A stretch of DNA of 64,000 nt, from positions 1-64,000 of the forward strand of contig CAMCVV010000002.1 of assembly GCA_945881905.1 (NCBI GenBank), read 5' to 3'. The stretch comes from Paenibacillus alvei (lineage in GTDB: Bacteria > Bacillota > Bacilli > Paenibacillales > NBRC-103111). The notes under the pieces are model-generated. The model did no database searches. It was not told where the DNA came from and saw nothing but the letters and a program-made list of their open reading frames with translations. Positions 49,288-63,093 of the stretch are shown here, in pieces. Made by a program: the position numbers and the translations under genes. Every line of letters begins with the position of its first letter. Position 1 is the stretch's first letter.

Positions 49288-49644
49288 TTATACACGAGCC
49301 ATCGACAATAAACTACAGCATGATGGAAAGAAGAAATTGTTTTTTGCTGATGAATCTGGAAATACGCAAAAAGGATTATGAATAAGCGTCGTTTGAGCAG
49401 TTAGAAGATCAATATAATGAAATCCGTTCTCTAAAGCAGCAACGATCCCTCCATGTTCACGAAAAGCAAATGAACCTATCGATTGATCAAGCGCTATAGA
49501 CTTCATAAGACTCGTTCGAGATGAATCTACACCGTGATGAATTCTGTTCTCCACAATATCTACCCAGTATAACTGCTGTGTCAGTTCATCCCACACAGGA
49601 CCTTCCCCCGAGCGTACATCGAGAATCACAGACCAGTGTTGCAT
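49288..49644 (-). pseudogene. Truncated SMP-30/gluconolactonase-like gene
   Basis: 118 codons whose first 85 or so match SMP-30 family N-termini: RSGEGPVWDELTQQLYWVDI and ENGFHYIDLL. After VFPDSS the homology stops and the remaining residues (NNFFFPSCCSLLSMARV) look unrelated. A whole protein has near 290 aa, so over two thirds is missing, and only 62 bp separate it from the ROK start. The AGGAGG upstream is 20 bases from the start codon, which is poor. Confidence 0.8.
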
Positions 49645-55735: not shown

Positions 55736-56296
55736 TCACATTATCTTCGGCGTGTAGTTGTTCTTTGTAATCCACAAATTTGCGACTTGATCGATGAGTT
55801 CTTCGTCACTTAACGAATCTCGATGATCCACAACAGATAATAGTTCCTCAAATTCTTCTCTGGAAACTACGATTTTAGTATGTCCATCCATAACCCAAGA
55901 CATGTAGAAGTAAAGAAATACTCCTTCAATTGAAGGATCAAATTTATGTCGATGTATATATAGCCACGTTCTCATTGCACCACGAATCTCGACACCTTTC
56001 TTAAATTCAAAACCTTTGTTTTGCGCGTCTATTTCGATATTTTTGCTTCCCTCTTGAACGATCCCCTGATCATTTAATATGGTTCTGTCAGAAAAATAAC
56101 CATTCTCTCTTAAAACCATATTCAGTATTTTCAATTCAACCTTGTTCAATTTCTTTAGATCACCGAGCAACTGGTCTTCTGTTACATACTGGCCATCAGG
56201 TGCAATCGGTTTGTTTCCATTTAGAAACGATGTAATACATATTCCGATGATAATAATCGCTAGGACACCACAGATGATCACTATTCTTCTTTTCAC
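55736..56296 (-). CDS. Membrane-anchored domain protein, copy A
   Basis: 186 aa from GTG 56296 (GGAGGTG upstream; the longer frame to 56368 includes a hairpin and is rejected). An N-terminal helix (RIVIICGVLAIIIIGICI) is followed by an outward-facing domain that starts KPIAPDGQYVTEDQLLGDL, contains ENGYFSDRTILNDQG, MRTWLY and REEFEELLSVVDHRDSLSDE, and ends ANLWITKNNYTPK. I do not recognise the family. It is one of four related sequences here (copies at 56390, 61110 and 62182). Confidence 0.8.
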   Translation of the reverse strand: MKRRIVIICGVLAIIIIGICITSFLNGNKPIAPDGQYVTEDQLLGDLKKLNKVELKILNMVLRENGYFSDRTILNDQGIVQEGSKNIEIDAQNKGFEFKKGVEIRGAMRTWLYIHRHKFDPSIEGVFLYFYMSWVMDGHTKIVVSREEFEELLSVVDHRDSLSDEELIDQVANLWITKNNYTPKIM

Positions 56297-56320
56297 TAGA
56301 TCACCTCCACCGAATAAACA

Positions 56321-56348
56321 CCAGGCATAACCGTTCGGATATGCCTGG
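56321..56348 (-). repeat. Inverted repeat between copies A and B
   Basis: 9-bp stem (CCAGGCATA at 56321-56329 with TATGCCTGG at 56340-56348), 10-base loop. It lies 24 bp before the copy A start, so may be a partial terminator. A degenerate copy of the same sequence recurs at 62900-62936. Confidence 0.75.
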
Positions 56349-56389
56349 TAATTAGGATTAAGAAACATATCTAATTGTTAATTCAATCA

Positions 56390-56944
56390 TCATCGTTTCC
56401 TTGGTGTGTAGTTGTTCTTTGTAATCCATAGATTTGCGACTTGATCGATGAGTTCTTCGTCACTTAACGAATCTCGATGATCCACTTCAGATAATAGTTC
56501 TTGAAATTCTTCTCTGGAAACTACGATTTTAGTATCTCCATCCATAACCCATGAGATATCAAAGAAAAGATAAACGCCCACGATGGAATCATTTCCCGGA
56601 TGTTTGTTTAAATAAAGCCACGTTCGAATTGCTGCACGTACTTCGATACCTTCGTTAAATTCAAAACCTTTGTTTTTCGCGTCTATTTCGATATTTTTGC
56701 TTCCCTCTTGAACGATTCCCTGATCATTTAAAATGGTTCTGTCAGAAAAATAACCATTCTCTCTTAAAACCATATTCAGTATTTTCAATTCAACCTTGTT
56801 CAATTTCTTTAGATCACCGAGCAACTGCTCTTCTGTTACATACTGGCCATCAGGAGCAATCGGTTTATCTACATAAAGTAAAATGCTACAAAGACTGACA
56901 AGAAATATACCGATGACGATTAATACCCAGTGTTTCTTTTTCAT
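56390..56944 (-). CDS. Membrane-anchored domain protein, copy B
   Basis: 184 aa; N-terminal helix (HWVLIVIGIFLVSLCSILLY), then the same domain as copy A. From about KPIAPDG to the EGSKNIEIDA region the two are almost identical in protein and DNA, while the WLY segment and the N-terminal helix differ. Such patchy identity suggests gene conversion or recent duplication with diversification of one part. Follows the lipase gene on the same strand with 62 bp. Confidence 0.8.
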   Translation of the reverse strand: MKKKHWVLIVIGIFLVSLCSILLYVDKPIAPDGQYVTEEQLLGDLKKLNKVELKILNMVLRENGYFSDRTILNDQGIVQEGSKNIEIDAKNKGFEFNEGIEVRAAIRTWLYLNKHPGNDSIVGVYLFFDISWVMDGDTKIVVSREEFQELLSEVDHRDSLSDEELIDQVANLWITKNNYTPRKR

Positions 56945-57006
56945 TTGAACACCTCCCTGAATGGACAGCTTGATATAATAAGCGATTTGTGTCTAGGAGT
57001 TAAGAC

Positions 57007-58917
57007 TTATTGAACAAACGACCAAAATTTATTTGCGGTTTCTTTTAAGTTTGTCGTTTTTGATCCATCAGTTCGGTCCCATTCATTGTTATTGAAATAC
57101 TCCATATGAACCTCTAGAGGTTTTGTAATTGGATTCAACTTTACAACTTGTACCTGAGCAGGTAACCCAGATCCCCAAGTGCCTATCGAAGGAATCGGAT
57201 CCAGAACGGACTCATATCCGTTTGACATGGGTACATAAGCTCTCAGGAAAAACACTTTATTGGCTAGCATCGACATATTTGTCTTTGGCGAACCGATCTG
57301 CACGATAGCACTTGGGGAATATTTTTTACTTGCGCATAGAAGTAGCATTTTACCTGCTTCATGTGAAGCTACCCCACCTCCACTGTGTCCCAATAATATA
57401 AGTTTTCCGCCATATTTGTCTATCTCTGACAATGCAATCCCATACAGTTTGGATGCTCCGTACAGTTGATTAATCGGTGGAAGCGGTACTCCCGGAAGCA
57501 ACGTTTGTACGATTTCCATATCCGTGGAAATGAGTGCAAGTTGTAAGTAACCTAAACCAATCTGCTTTAAGATGTTTAAGTTATCTGCACTCCTATAAGG
57601 ATATTGGATCGACACATGTGCTTTCTTCCCTAATGCACTATAGCGATTCACAAGCTCTTGTTCGAGTGGTTCTAAGAATCCTGTCGAAGTGAGCATCCCC
57701 GCAGACAGAATCACGGTATAATCACAGCTCGCTGTGCATTCTCCTGGAAGTATCCGATCATTAGCTAATGCATGCGCACCTGCACTTGATGAGGCTCCAT
57801 TCATGTAATCGATTACCTTCTGATCGGTGACGACGAGGCGGACTTCTGTCGAATTCACTGTGACTGTCATGCTTTTCTCGAGCAGTTGCTTAGATAACCA
57901 TACTTTCCCTGCTTCTGTCACATAGTCTGTGCCAAGGTTCAGCTCTGTTGTAGGGACTCCATCGAGATTGACGAACACCTGACCAGATGTGTATTGAATA
58001 GCGTGGTATTCATCGATCAGTTTAGGTGTGTCCCCGATTTTCGATACATAGAGTGGCATGTATTTGTAATTACCCGTTACCGAGAGGGTAGACGACGCAC
58101 TATTGAAATTGTAACCACGGTATTTGACATAGTACGTTTGCCAAGCATTCAGTTCGAAGTTGATTTCAGAGAATAACGTGCCGTTGGCATCGTCATTATA
58201 GGCCCGTTGTTTCATATACGATGGATCACTATATAACTCGAGGTACGTATCCGAAGAATATCCGAGACTAGCTGTACTTAGTTTGAAATTCCCGTTGTAC
58301 GGTGCAGTGAAGCTGAAATACTTCGTTTCCCCATTGGCGACTGATACGCCCTGTGCATCATTCAGATTAATCGGTGTGAATGTATTTATATAGGACACGG
58401 ATAGTCGAGCATACACTGCATTCGAACTACTGTAATGTCTTAACTTTACATAGTACGTCATGCCTGCTTGAAGAGATGTCTTGATCTCCGAGAAGGTGTT
58501 GCCGTTGGCATCGTCATTCGAAGCGATCAGGCCTGAGAGGTTGGAGTAGCTGTACAATTCGAGTACGGTGTCATTCGAATCTCCATATCCATTGTAGGAG
58601 CCAGTGAATAATTTGTGCTCGCCCGAATAGCTCGGAGTGATGGCATATACCCGATATGCACCTGATGCTAGACTCACGTCAATCGGACTATTGACCGATA
58701 ATGAGTAGATGGACTGTGCAGGAGGTAAAGTCGGCGATGGTGTTGGTACAGGTGTTGGTACAGGTGTTGGTACAGGTGTTGGTGCTGAGACATATATCGT
58801 GAAGTAATCGTCCCATCCTGGAGCTTCTGGGTAATTCCATCGAATCACATACGAGCCTGCAGGGGTAGATCTACTTGTCTGCCACGTATAGCTAAGCGGG
58901 TTGCTTTGCCGATGCAT
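57007..58917 (-). CDS. PPC-domain lipase-like hydrolase, 3' half of a split gene
   Basis: 636 codons. Starts inside a domain (NPLSYTWQTSRSTPAGSYV) continuous with the end of the subtilisin frame; a Pro/Thr/Val linker (12-bp repeats); two PPC-type beta domains (SNDTVLELYSYSNLSGLIAS and SSDTYLELYSDPSYMKQRAY); a beta domain like those in copper-amine-oxidase N-termini; then an alpha/beta hydrolase with nucleophile elbow LLGHSGGGVAS and a candidate His in PLEVHMEYFNN. The first ATG (58917) has no ribosome site. It was probably translated as the C-terminal part of the subtilisin gene. Confidence 0.85.
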   Translation of the reverse strand: MHRQSNPLSYTWQTSRSTPAGSYVIRWNYPEAPGWDDYFTIYVSAPTPVPTPVPTPVPTPSPTLPPAQSIYSLSVNSPIDVSLASGAYRVYAITPSYSGEHKLFTGSYNGYGDSNDTVLELYSYSNLSGLIASNDDANGNTFSEIKTSLQAGMTYYVKLRHYSSSNAVYARLSVSYINTFTPINLNDAQGVSVANGETKYFSFTAPYNGNFKLSTASLGYSSDTYLELYSDPSYMKQRAYNDDANGTLFSEINFELNAWQTYYVKYRGYNFNSASSTLSVTGNYKYMPLYVSKIGDTPKLIDEYHAIQYTSGQVFVNLDGVPTTELNLGTDYVTEAGKVWLSKQLLEKSMTVTVNSTEVRLVVTDQKVIDYMNGASSSAGAHALANDRILPGECTASCDYTVILSAGMLTSTGFLEPLEQELVNRYSALGKKAHVSIQYPYRSADNLNILKQIGLGYLQLALISTDMEIVQTLLPGVPLPPINQLYGASKLYGIALSEIDKYGGKLILLGHSGGGVASHEAGKMLLLCASKKYSPSAIVQIGSPKTNMSMLANKVFFLRAYVPMSNGYESVLDPIPSIGTWGSGLPAQVQVVKLNPITKPLEVHMEYFNNNEWDRTDGSKTTNLKETANKFWSFVQ

Positions 58918-60835
58918 TCCATAGGGTCGAGCTTGCTACGATCTGACTAGAGTTCGACTGTGGATAGACTGTAATGTTTATTCGAGACTTAGGTGAGCTG
59001 AGTGTGATGCCTACATTGGCACTTGATCCAGCTGCTACGCTTTGTCCGTCTCCATACTTATTGTAACTTAATAATTGGATAATCTCAGAAGTCGAAGCGA
59101 TATTCGGTGCTTGTTGCAGTCCCTTCAGCTGAGTTCTCGCTTGCGTAATGACGCCTAGATATAGAGTTTCTAGTTCGACAAATTCTTCTTTTCTTGATTC
59201 ATAGACACGCTTGGAAAGCGCGTTCAGTTGTGAGACATCTTCCTTGCTAATCTGTTTGGCTTCTTCTGGCAATTGGTGCAATTCACGATTCCACATCACC
59301 AAGTCATAGTAAGATGCTTCGAGTTGCTTCGCCAGTGAGATATTGCCTTCTTCTGTAGCCATCTGCTTCAAATTTAATATCGCATTGCCCAATCCGTAAA
59401 ACTTCTCGTCTAGTTTCTTAATGTCAAATTCACCTGGTGGTGGTGTAGGGACAGACGTCGGAATTGGAGTCGATGAAGAGTTCGGAGTAGGAGTCGGAGT
59501 AGGAGTCGATGAAGAGTTCGGAGTAGGAGTGTCCTCAGGTACTTCTTGGCTAGGTGGTATCGGTTTATTCGTCAGACCTAGCGCTTTCGCTACGTTCACG
59601 ATCCCGTTTCCGTATTCACTTTTGTCACCAAGTGGCGTCGCTGTACGATACAGAGTATTCTTCACATCTTTCTGCGTCCACTTCTTATTCTTACTCCATA
59701 AGATCGCTGCGGATCCTGTGACATGAGGTACTGCCATCGAAGTACCTGACATCACACCATACGTTCCGTCGAATGTCGTACTGAGGATATTCGTCCCCGG
59801 TGCAACGAGATCTAATTGTTGTCCAGTACTGGAGAATCCTGCCCGCTTATGATTCGGACTAACAGCTCCTACAGATATGACTTCGGGGTACAGTGCAGGA
59901 TATAGTTCCGTTTCTGCGCCTGCTCCCTGATTACCAGCTGCTGCAATGACGAGAATTCCTTTTGCAGTAGCTTCCTGAATAACGGCTTGAAGGGCTTGAC
60001 TAGCTGAAGTTCCGCCAAAACTCATGGAGATGATGTTCATCTTATTGGCGATACTCCATTGAATCGCTTCGATGACTTGGCTGTAAGTGCCTTCTCCTTG
60101 TCGGTCGAGAACTTTAAGTGCGTACACGTTTGCATTCGAAGCTACACCGACGACTCCTTTCTTGTTGCTGAGTGCTGCGATTGTGCCTGCTACATGTGTA
60201 CCGTGTCCGTGATCGTCCGTGTAACTAAGATTATCAGATACAAATGACTTCCCACCTGCGATCTGTAGATCCGAGTGATTAGCAATCCCCGTATCTAACA
60301 CTGCAATCTTTATTTTTTTTCCTTCGATGCTTTTTTGCAGAGATTGGTCTGCACCTATCGCTTTTATCCCCCAAGGAATCGTATCTTTTAGTTTATTGGA
60401 CTTCAAGACAGAGATGTCCTCATCTATATAGAATCTAGATCCATCATCATCGGTAGATTCTACTGAGGCAACTTTCACGATCGCATTCGGTTCAATAAAT
60501 TCAATATTTCTATCCCATGCTGCACTTTGCAATTCTTGTGGAGTTAAATCAAGAACGAGAAGCTTTGCACTGAGTTTTTTGATATTTTTTCTTTGCCAAC
60601 TTTTCTTGATCAGCAACTTATCTGGGTCTGTTTGTTCCTTTAGTCCTATGAGATAAGAACCATTCCCTGATCCAGAATTTGCAATCTTGCTATCTTCACT
60701 ACTGCTATTCGTACTTGTGCCTGTACTGATGTCACTACTTTCCAGAGATGAACCTGCGTATACATTATTCCCACTTAATGTTAGTAATACCATGGTGCAC
60801 ATCACAGCAATCCATTTTTTCGTTTGTTTTTTCAA
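58892..60835 (-). CDS. Secreted subtilisin-like protease, 5' part of a split gene
   Basis: 647 codons; TTG start, AAGGAA upstream. Signal peptide (residues 1-27), an I9-type propeptide (60-121), and an S8 catalytic domain: Asp181 (VLDTG), His211 (GHGTHVAG), oxyanion Asn302 and Ser366 (SGTSMA). A Pro/Ser/Thr linker with a 36-bp repeat, an alpha-helical segment (about 475-580), and a beta domain cut by a TAG at 58892. At the end, Q-P-A-stop would become Q-P-L-S-Y-T-W if one C in CCC (58898-58900) were skipped. The combined product would be about 1,275 aa. Confidence 0.88.
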   Translation of the reverse strand: MKKQTKKWIAVMCTMVLLTLSGNNVYAGSSLESSDISTGTSTNSSSEDSKIANSGSGNGSYLIGLKEQTDPDKLLIKKSWQRKNIKKLSAKLLVLDLTPQELQSAAWDRNIEFIEPNAIVKVASVESTDDDGSRFYIDEDISVLKSNKLKDTIPWGIKAIGADQSLQKSIEGKKIKIAVLDTGIANHSDLQIAGGKSFVSDNLSYTDDHGHGTHVAGTIAALSNKKGVVGVASNANVYALKVLDRQGEGTYSQVIEAIQWSIANKMNIISMSFGGTSASQALQAVIQEATAKGILVIAAAGNQGAGAETELYPALYPEVISVGAVSPNHKRAGFSSTGQQLDLVAPGTNILSTTFDGTYGVMSGTSMAVPHVTGSAAILWSKNKKWTQKDVKNTLYRTATPLGDKSEYGNGIVNVAKALGLTNKPIPPSQEVPEDTPTPNSSSTPTPTPTPNSSSTPIPTSVPTPPPGEFDIKKLDEKFYGLGNAILNLKQMATEEGNISLAKQLEASYYDLVMWNRELHQLPEEAKQISKEDVSQLNALSKRVYESRKEEFVELETLYLGVITQARTQLKGLQQAPNIASTSEIIQLLSYNKYGDGQSVAAGSSANVGITLSSPKSRINITVYPQSNSSQIVASSTLWNASAKQPA

Positions 60836-61010
60836 ATTCCATGTTCCTTTTCCATAAATTTATAAATGAGAGCTGTTCTACCTTCACTTACAGATGACCT
60901 ATCGATTATGGTGACGTCGTTCATTCCTCAATTAAATTTAGTATTATTCCATAATTTTCTAAAATATATCATATTATACAAAATTGCACCACGCTGATTC
61001 GTCAGAACAT

Positions 61011-61053
61011 AAAAAAACTTTCTCTACTGTGCAGTTGCACGGTAAAGAAAGTT
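61011..61053 (-). terminator. Intrinsic terminator after the 61110 gene
   Basis: On the minus strand AACTTTCTTTACCGTGCA pairs with the GCACAGTAGAGAAAGTT arm (one mismatch), followed by TTTTTTTATG. It ends the 61110-62155 unit and lies before the subtilisin promoter. No other gene is in 60836-61109. Confidence 0.88.
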
Positions 61054-61109
61054 CATTCGAACGTTTGTTTACTTATAAACTTTAAATCTTCGGTTCATAA
61101 CCCCTGGTC

Positions 61110-62155
61110 TCAATCATAACCTTTATCGAAATACATGTCCTTCCACAACTTCGCAAGTTCTTCGACATTCAATTCATCAAAGGGGGTATTCGGGAATTGA
61201 CTGCGTATCGTATCAAATTCATATCGTGTCATCGTGATCGAATCAACAGCAAATGCTTCCCAGGTACTTGTATAGACCTCTACAGCTGCTATAGGGAATG
61301 GAAGATCCCGTTCCATTGCATACAACCACAACAACACTGCGTGCTGGATACCCGTGGAAACCAGATGATTATATTCTCCTGTCCCTTTCTTCATTCGAAT
61401 TCCAAGTGAGATCACGTGTTCATTCGAACTGAGGGTCTCACCACCAGTATTCAGCTTTGTGTTATCTGAATAGAGATAAAAATGAATAGCTCTATCTGAT
61501 GAGAATACTTTTTTGTTATTGATCCAAGACAAATCATGTCGAATCACATCTTCAGTCACAGTTGCACCAACTGGACTGATCTCTCTAGGCTGATAGCTAT
61601 CCCACACCTCGTATACATACATGATCGTTACACCAAGTAAGGCGATTAGTACAATAGTTATCAGAGTGCGACGAATGAGACCCATACTCTTGATGTAAAA
61701 CCCAACTGTGACCATAAGGTATAGGACGAACAATTGTAATAATAGGTGCTCAGGCGCAATACATAACAAAAGGAGAATGGATATGAGATAACCTATACAA
61801 GTGAGGCCCACTTTGTACCAATTCTTATAGACTACATCATAGAGAATAATCATTAAGGGTATGATGTTCAGCATGAACCATCCTAGGCCGAGATGGGGTG
61901 ACGCTTTCCTTTTCCCGTCAATGCATAACCGCAAGCTAGGAAATAATATAATACGAGGTTATTGAACAGCGGATGTTGAAATCCGTAACATAAAAATACG
62001 ATATAACTTGCTGCATATCCCACTCCAATAAAACTTACGACAGTCCATTTTTGTTGAGCTTTATACTTAAGTAGAGGTATGATTGGAAGTCCTAATAGGA
62101 TGAATTGAACAGGAGGTAGCGAAATAACAATAATTAAACCTAGGATTAAAGCATG
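61110..62155 (-). pseudogene. Broken polytopic membrane protein with the shared C-terminal domain
   Basis: The open part (61110-61934, 274 codons) has about four helices and a C-terminal domain related to copies A and B: ISPVGATVTEDVIRHDL, FSSDRAI, LLWLYAMERD, RYEFDTIRSQF, and ELAKLWKDMYF. Upstream, a second frame (62155 down to about 61893) codes for two more helices (LILGLIIVISLPPVQFILLG and SFIGVGYAASYIVFLCYG) and ends GYALTGKGKRHP; the C-run at the junction suggests a one-base loss. The 5' end lacks a start codon after a TAA (62156-62158). So it is frameshifted and 5'-truncated. Confidence 0.7.
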
Positions 62156-62181
62156 TTAGACAATACACTTGTTTCCTATCG

Positions 62182-62601
62182 TTAATATAATGGCTTGTAG
62201 CCGTTATCTTGCATCCATATTATCGATAACGCATCGACCAGCGCTTCATCGCCTAAGGAATCTCGGTTATCGATTTCAGATAAGATCTGCTCGAACTCTT
62301 GCTTGGATACAAATATAGTTGCTGGAGTATTCATAGCCAAACGGGCACGAGAATAATGAATGTTGACGCCAACAATAATGTCATCCACGATATGTCTGCG
62401 CACATATAACCAAGTTCTCATTGAAGCTCTTACTTCAGTACCTTCCAGTGAAACATCAACATGCTTGTATGCAAATATATTTATAAACTTACTTCCTGGT
62501 TCAATATTTCCTGCTTCATCTCTAACTGTATTGTTAACATAAACCCAAAAATCCGACAATTTTAATGACCTGGCTTTAACCTCTATTTTGTTTACTTTTA
62601 A
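62182..62601 (-). pseudogene. Membrane-anchored domain protein, copy C (5'-truncated)
   Basis: Reads LKVNKIEVKARSLKLSDF, then GSKFINIFAYK, RASMRTWLYVRRH, KQEFEQILSEIDNRDSLGDE and IIWMQDNGYKPLY, matching copies A and B throughout but diverged. The N-terminal helix and PIAPDG segment are missing: homology starts about 2 bases before the stop of the lipase remnant. A TTG at 62559 could give 125 aa, but no ribosome site precedes it. Confidence 0.8.
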
Positions 62602-62890
62602 TATGATGCGTGCAAATCGATCAAATTATCAAGTGCCGGATCCAACAACATCAATTCACTTCGAGCAGGTGATTTGAAGCCCCAAGAACCAATCCCAGAA
62701 ACCGGATCTTGAACGTTCACGTTGACAAACCAATATTTTTTGGGGATATAGGCTCTAAGAAAAAACACGTTGTCTGCTAACAGATCCATGTTTGTTCTTG
62801 GTGAACCGATCTGTATGATTGGACTTGGCGAATATGAGTATCTGTACAATTCGAGTACGGTGTCATTCGAACCTACATATCCAATTAAAG
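62598..62890 (-). pseudogene. Internally deleted second lipase copy
   Basis: The first part (GSNDTVLELYRYSY) matches the first PPC domain of the intact lipase (bases 62835-62890 against 58550-58600 nearly identical). It jumps directly to SPSPIIQIGSPRTNM and DNVFFLRAYIPKK, which match the hydrolase C-terminus. The junction falls where both sides read YSY/YSPS, so short homology may have driven the deletion of more than 350 codons, including the nucleophile. Confidence 0.85.
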
Positions 62891-62899
62891 AAACACTAA

Positions 62900-62999
62900 G
62901 CATAACCGATCGATGATGCCTGGTAATTAGGATTAAAGAGTACATGATTGGTTTTAGTTTCGATCCTTGTTAGCGTTCATTATCTTCGGCGTATAGTTA
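62900..62999 (-). repeat. Remnants of the copy A 3' end and its hairpin spacer
   Basis: 62978-62999 (CATTATCTTCGGCGTATAGTTA) matches the last codons of copy A at 55738-55760 (YTPKIM). 62900-62936 matches the spacer around the inverted repeat at 56321-56348. Their order recreates the unit boundary between two family copies and shows that a further copy once lay upstream. No gene remains here. Confidence 0.75.
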
Positions 63000-63093
63000 G
63001 ATATGTGATGTCCTTTTTTTTAGTATATATGCTACTATATTTATGGTAATGTTGATTTGCGTCTTGATTTTATAGTATATAGGAGGTAATCCG

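Follow-up and report, generated by a model that had tools for sequence, protein, structure and literature searches.

A probable lipase toxin-immunity array, partly decayed, on a secreted subtilase carrier in Paenibacillus alvei

We analysed a locus in the first 64,000 nucleotides of a Paenibacillus alvei contig (CAMCVV010000002.1), a stretch that we call the window. The original prediction described here a secreted protease and lipase accompanied by related membrane-anchored domain proteins, and every element that it described was confirmed, in a minus-strand region between 63.0 and 55.7 kb. In the direction of reading these are a lipase remnant, a truncated and a polytopic copy of one domain, a subtilisin ORF (ORF1), a PPC-lipase ORF (ORF2) and two further domain copies, A and B (Table 1). 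Copies A and B are indeed paralogs that directly follow the lipase, with one N-terminal helix each and 76-79% identity. The two upstream relatives were found as well, the polytopic one matching A at E=7.5e-5 with an N-terminal part that carries on upstream in another frame; a similar polytopic form of the domain is held by another genome (G022). The lipase-then-domain order occurs twice, as had been claimed, with the remnant (62601-62846) directly before the truncated copy, and we found in addition the trace of a fifth domain gene (62978-62998). Because this trace and a repeat of the hairpin precede the lipase remnant, the repeating unit reads as domain, hairpin, lipase, domain. A search of the whole 2.4-Mb genome recovered four recognisable copies of the domain, all of them within these 7 kb, which excludes a chance arrangement.

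Table 1. Features of the locus, in positions of the window.
Feature	Position	Strand	Description
ORF1	58892..60835	-	Signal peptide, propeptide, subtilase (S8), linker, helical region and first part of a beta-rich domain; putative carrier half (N-terminal) of a polymorphic toxin
ORF2	57007..58917	-	Remaining beta-rich domain, PT linker, two PPC-like repeats and C-terminal alpha/beta-hydrolase (lipase) putative warhead; frame differs from ORF1
Frameshift region	58892..58917	-	Overlap of the two frames; splits the toxin gene in this assembly
Lipase warhead domain	57010..57810	-	Motifs GHSGGG (57390-57373), DPIP (57201-57190) and VHMEY (57111-57097)
Copy A	56390..56944	-	62 nt past the lipase; predicted immunity protein, anchored in the membrane and facing outward
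49-nt hairpin between the two copies A and B	56313..56361	-	Repeat D7; hairpin judged by eye from the letters
Copy B	55736..56299	-	Second putative immunity paralog; read here from a GTG start, ORF open to 56368
Polytopic-membrane domain copy	61110..61934	-	Four hydrophobic peaks; N-terminal membrane part broken by a second frameshift
Truncated domain copy	62182..62604	-	Without the membrane helix; 38-39% identical to A; profile match from position 47
Lipase remnant	62601..62846	-	Without the GHSGGG segment; profile E=7.3e-21; directly before the truncated domain copy; repeats D4, D6
PPC piece ahead of the lipase remnant	62836-62883	-	Repeats D4, D6
Hairpin element, second copy	62888..62936	-	Repeat D7, 86%; upstream of the lipase remnant
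Fifth domain gene, 3' end	62978..62998	-	Repeat D10, 95% to the 3'-terminal 21 nt of copy B; reads NYTPKIM

ORF1 matches Peptidase_S8 (PF00082, E=1.4e-61) and contains the LDTGI, HGTHVAG and GTSMA motifs, leaving the Asp-His-Ser triad intact. The original prediction had the subtilisin joined to the PPC-lipase, but in the window they are two ORFs in different frames, where intact relatives have one continuous frame. In the alignment with these relatives, residues 2-45 of ORF2 pick up where ORF1 stops, and in five of them (L100, L096, L098, L099 and L137) the two ORFs meet on adjoining residues of a single protein. As the junction is continuous there, we conclude that the toxin gene of the window is frameshifted. 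The possibility of a separate secreted lipase gene is ruled out, because ORF2 has no signal peptide and continues the domain begun in ORF1. As judged from these alignments, the ancestral toxin is a single chain composed of signal peptide, subtilase, helical region, beta-rich domain, PPC repeats and hydrolase. ORF1 opens with a signal-peptide-like segment followed by the S8 domain, and we found in it no match to LXG or WXG, the mark sought for toxins of the type VII secretion system (T7SS).

The C-terminal domain of ORF2 gave no match in Pfam. Nevertheless, it carries a GxSxG motif with Asp and His, the three motifs (GHSGGG/DP/H) being conserved in the alignment of complete relatives, and its structural model (pLDDT 73) matches lipases and cutinases of the PDB in a Foldseek search, although the fold scores are modest (best E=2.6e-4, TM 0.35). 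Fold and motifs together suggest that the substrate of this putative warhead would be a lipid. The warhead belongs to the wider family of a widespread hydrolase of about 250 aa; this relative, which has no signal peptide, is found in 85 of 105 genomes of the family and is not linked to the domain at the loci inspected.

Next we considered the domain proteins themselves. The divergence between A and B is a mosaic, with a single amino-acid change in the 58 codons of residues 31-88 and 19 changes in the 46 codons of residues 89-134. In A, B and the lipase-linked copy of Paenibacillus piri, a positively charged start is followed by an N-terminal hydrophobic helix with a KD value of 2.6-3.0 (2.94 in copy A), from which an outward-facing domain is predicted by sequence. 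The immunity candidates found behind the nuclease ends of the same carrier are without such a helix (KD 0.6-1.2, with one borderline at 1.6). The model of copy A (pLDDT 87, pTM 0.80) has a membrane helix and a four-stranded domain in the order alpha-beta-beta-alpha-beta-beta-alpha-alpha, and a search with this fold against the PDB and viral structures returned nothing at E<=0.001. Likewise, the domain profile had no significant match among PDB sequences, and the copies fell into no family of Pfam or NCBIfam, with Pfam giving sub-threshold noise only. The claim that the family is undescribed therefore holds against Pfam, NCBIfam and the PDB, by profile and by fold, and the domain most likely represents a new immunity family within a known kind of system.

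Furthermore, we searched for the carrier in other genomes, using the linker and PPC region of ORF2 in the family and the PPC/hydrolase-proximal part in the order. The same S8-PPC/fn3 carrier was found in many genomes of the order with other C-terminal ends. In G026 and G013 it ends in PT-HINT and an AHH nuclease, with an Imm11 protein encoded behind it; PT-HINT with AHH is carried in four more genomes (G184, G330, G241 and G131) and PT-HINT with colicin D in G345. The carrier of G102 ends in a CdiA-CT RNase A, and a 95-aa gene comes next; that of G050 has a closely similar C-terminal sequence with a 105-aa gene behind it. ORF1 is 37-49% identical to the carriers of the relatives, with 45% over its length to that of G050. 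The genome of the window itself holds a second locus (contig C63, L106, 4240-11563) with a 1246-aa S8/fn3 protein, three tandem 212-aa paralogs that have no match in Pfam, and an orphan CdiA-CT RNase A tip (PF18431).

Collectively, a conserved N-terminal carrier is combined with exchanged ends (AHH, RNAse_A_bac, Colicin_D and the lipase). An immunity gene adjoins the toxin end, namely the domain at the lipase in the window, P. piri, G436 and G707, and Imm11 on the nuclease siblings. Silent or orphan cassettes and spare immunity genes occur as well, in the form of the remnants in the window, the P. piri piece, the Rhs tip of G436 and the orphan domain genes. The swapped ends, the HINT domains, the immunity genes behind them and the second locus in the same genome are marks of polymorphic toxins, a wider context that, like the frameshift, the earlier reading had missed.

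The lipase-domain pair is found on other carriers. In P. piri (L012), a C-terminal piece of the lipase follows YD-repeat debris, judged by eye, and passes directly into the domain. G436 has two pairs in an Rhs locus (YD repeats, Rhs_assc_core): a lipase piece lies 99 nt before one domain gene, and the other domain gene has, within 0.5 kb after it, a full lipase that opens with the Rhs-core end NPLTYTDPSG. In G707, on a third carrier, the domain gene starts 12 nt past the end of a full lipase. A six-frame profile scan around the domain copies found toxin-type lipases in the window, P. piri, G436 and G707 only, so that linked pairs are known from four genomes including the window's own. Six of the seven toxin-type lipases adjoin the domain, and the seventh, a secreted lipase in G014, is directly followed by a transposase gene. 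Trees of the lipases and of the domains have very long branches, too long for testing co-evolution.

Secreted degradative enzymes often contain subtilase and PPC domains, and the ~250-aa relative of the warhead is widespread without a signal peptide, so that the locus could be an ordinary protease-lipase for nutrient scavenging that happens to lie beside an unrelated membrane-protein family. We regard this as highly improbable, given that the carriers of many relatives end in nuclease toxins with immunity genes and that the lipase and the domain occur together on three further carriers.

The domain is rare. It was found in 9 of 399 genomes of the order and, counting the genome of the window, in 4 of 400 of the class, and a phylum-wide sample gave this genome alone; a sequence search in plasmids, phages and viral contigs found none, and a contig scan with the domain gave P. 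piri only. The original prediction named conserved linkage with PPC-lipase genes in many genomes as support, and a domain occurring widely without any lipase or protease neighbour as a refutation. Linkage was seen in the four genomes, but the refuting situation was seen in 8 of the 12 domain-carrying genomes, which have no lipase neighbour in the stretches examined, with a truncated domain in at least 4 of the 8. Still, these orphans are rare, often truncated and of no housekeeping family, which is what is expected of immunity genes.

Taken together, we conclude that the locus is very probably a partly decayed polymorphic toxin-immunity array, in which A and B are membrane-anchored immunity proteins against a secreted lipase toxin. 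The support is good because exchangeable warheads have immunity genes behind them and because the lipase-domain pair appears on Rhs and other carriers. Gene order, domain content, the recurrence of the pair on unrelated carriers and the swapping of warheads and immunity genes argue for this conclusion; the toxicity, the direct binding, the lipid substrate and the outward topology that go with it are what we infer.

Of the two functions offered by the original prediction, immunity is thus strongly favoured by the warhead swapping and the varied carriers of the pair, whereas a foldase or tether is not. In lipase-Lif pairs, the foldase gene lies just downstream of the lipase gene and its product has a helix in the membrane and a domain outside. 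The gene order and topology of A and B are the same, and the two proteins might accordingly be Lif-like steric chaperones of the secreted lipase or tethers holding it at the surface. However, the domain reaches the cut-off of no Pfam family, the lipase chaperone (Lif) family included, and has no significant fold match in the PDB, and the copy number and orphan pattern differ from those of Lif foldases. We consider such a role very unlikely because of the orphan copies without a lipase, the tandem paralogs and their hypervariable middle segment; furthermore, the pair travels with Rhs toxin tips, and a named immunity family (Imm11) takes the same place on sibling carriers.

Under the toxin-immunity interpretation, the full-length carrier, with its subtilase, beta-rich domain and PPC repeats, would be secreted by the Sec pathway and reach neighbouring bacteria, where the alpha/beta-hydrolase tip would most likely attack the membrane lipids from outside. 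The protease of the carrier may aid the processing of the chain or the penetration of the wall, which is a guess. A and B would sit with their N-terminal helix in the membrane of the producer, the C-terminal domain on the outer face binding and blocking the lipase. The upstream remnants may be an older toxin-immunity cassette with spare immunity copies.

This arrangement has parallels among known systems. In Staphylococcus aureus, the lipase toxin TslA is secreted by the type VII system and is countered by the immunity lipoprotein TilA (PMC10730906). As proposed for the window, an antibacterial lipase acts outside the cell and the immunity protein is on the outer face of the membrane; both systems have variable tandem immunity copies with shuffling between conserved blocks. 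The TilA family is a shuffled mosaic to which that of A and B can be likened (PMC10730906), and the alternation of conserved (31-88) and variable (89-134) stretches counts for immunity because it resembles such shuffled arrays. TslA, however, has an N-terminal lipase and uses the T7SS, while the window has a Sec-type subtilase/PPC carrier with a C-terminal lipase, and TilA is a DUF576 lipoprotein whereas the anchor in the window is a transmembrane helix. A Pfam search found no DUF576 match in any domain copy of the window. The TelC-TipC system of Streptococcus intermedius, whose T7SS-secreted toxin TelC is a lipid II phosphatase (PMC6193138), offers a second comparison: TipC resembles A and B in having one N-terminal transmembrane segment, an outward inhibitory domain (predicted in A and B) and paralogs in the operon, but it is a crescent with a seven-stranded sheet, unlike the four-stranded alpha-beta fold predicted for copy A. 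A helix with an outward domain fits a lipase that attacks the outer face of the membrane, as in both of these systems.

Sec-dependent polymorphic toxins with a built-in subtilisin have been described by Zhang et al. 2012 (PMC3482391). Like the window, they have a signal peptide, an S8 protease, an exchangeable C-terminal toxin and a downstream immunity gene, with HINT in siblings. The S8 carriers of that study bear other toxins such as Ntox32, and we did not find the lipase warhead and immunity family of the window named there. The same study defines Tox-ABhydrolase-1/2/3 as polymorphic-toxin warheads, two of which have lipids as their predicted target (PMC3482391); these are alpha/beta-hydrolases like the lipase of the window, but their immunity partners (Imm66, Imm69 and SUKH) are other families. 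The system is ordinary in kind, and what is new is the immunity family and this combination of warhead and carrier.

Next we asked whether the array is still a weapon. The odds appear even that it no longer works, the toxin being a frameshifted pseudogene and the copies either defensive orphan immunity genes or themselves decaying. Two frameshifts and internally deleted cassettes lie within 7 kb of an otherwise largely intact window. On the other hand, the catalytic motifs of both halves and the full-length A and B are intact, and an assembly error at one site (58892-58917) may account for the split. A poor assembly overall is disfavoured as the source of the frameshifts, and real decay is the more likely, because the remaining window reads cleanly, its other genes being long intact ORFs with 90% coverage. 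With its toxin gene frameshifted in this assembly, the strain may now keep mainly immunity. The genome, at 2.4 Mb (99.6% completeness) against 4-10 Mb for others of the family, is apparently strongly reduced with its toxin arrays kept. Elsewhere in the window (49288-49644, minus strand), a short ORF resembles the N-terminus of SMP-30/gluconolactonase and is apparently truncated.

We tentatively hypothesize, as a suggestion somewhat short of an even chance, that the subtilase-PPC protein is a general Sec-secreted carrier of warheads in the Paenibacillus order and that the immunity side matches the warhead, soluble inside the cell against nucleases and anchored outside against the lipase. Those on the outside would then have a new inhibitor fold, in which the hypervariable residues 89-134 set which lipase is blocked. 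These results offer a testable function for an unnamed protein family, and would extend lipase warheads that are paired with a surface-anchored inhibitor beyond the type VII systems. The Sec-secreted protease carrier for antibacterial toxins appears to be common, and little described, in the relatives of Paenibacillus, and the mosaic of A and B represents a natural experiment on the evolution of immunity specificity.

Several further arrangements were observed around such carriers. Loci across the order (L133-L140, L142 and L143) have S8 carriers of about 1800 aa whose ends are PT-HINT with AHH or with colicin D. Those of the AHH type each have a gene of about 270 aa next (two related genes tested match Imm11), and at most of these loci a large secreted protein containing RCC1-like or fn3-like stretches comes third, in a recurring three-gene arrangement. 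At L097, L101, L132, L141, L131 and L144 the S8/PPC or related carriers lack a toxin end, several of them terminating in a short YD-like stretch, and a giant Rhs/YD protein comes next, directly or after a small secreted protein, possibly as a two-component version. Finally, behind a PPC-ended secreted protein in G013 (L108, 4328-7474) lies a 180-aa protein that has a single membrane helix at its N-terminus; this protein is not matched by the domain profile and may form another outside-acting pair with the PPC-ended one.
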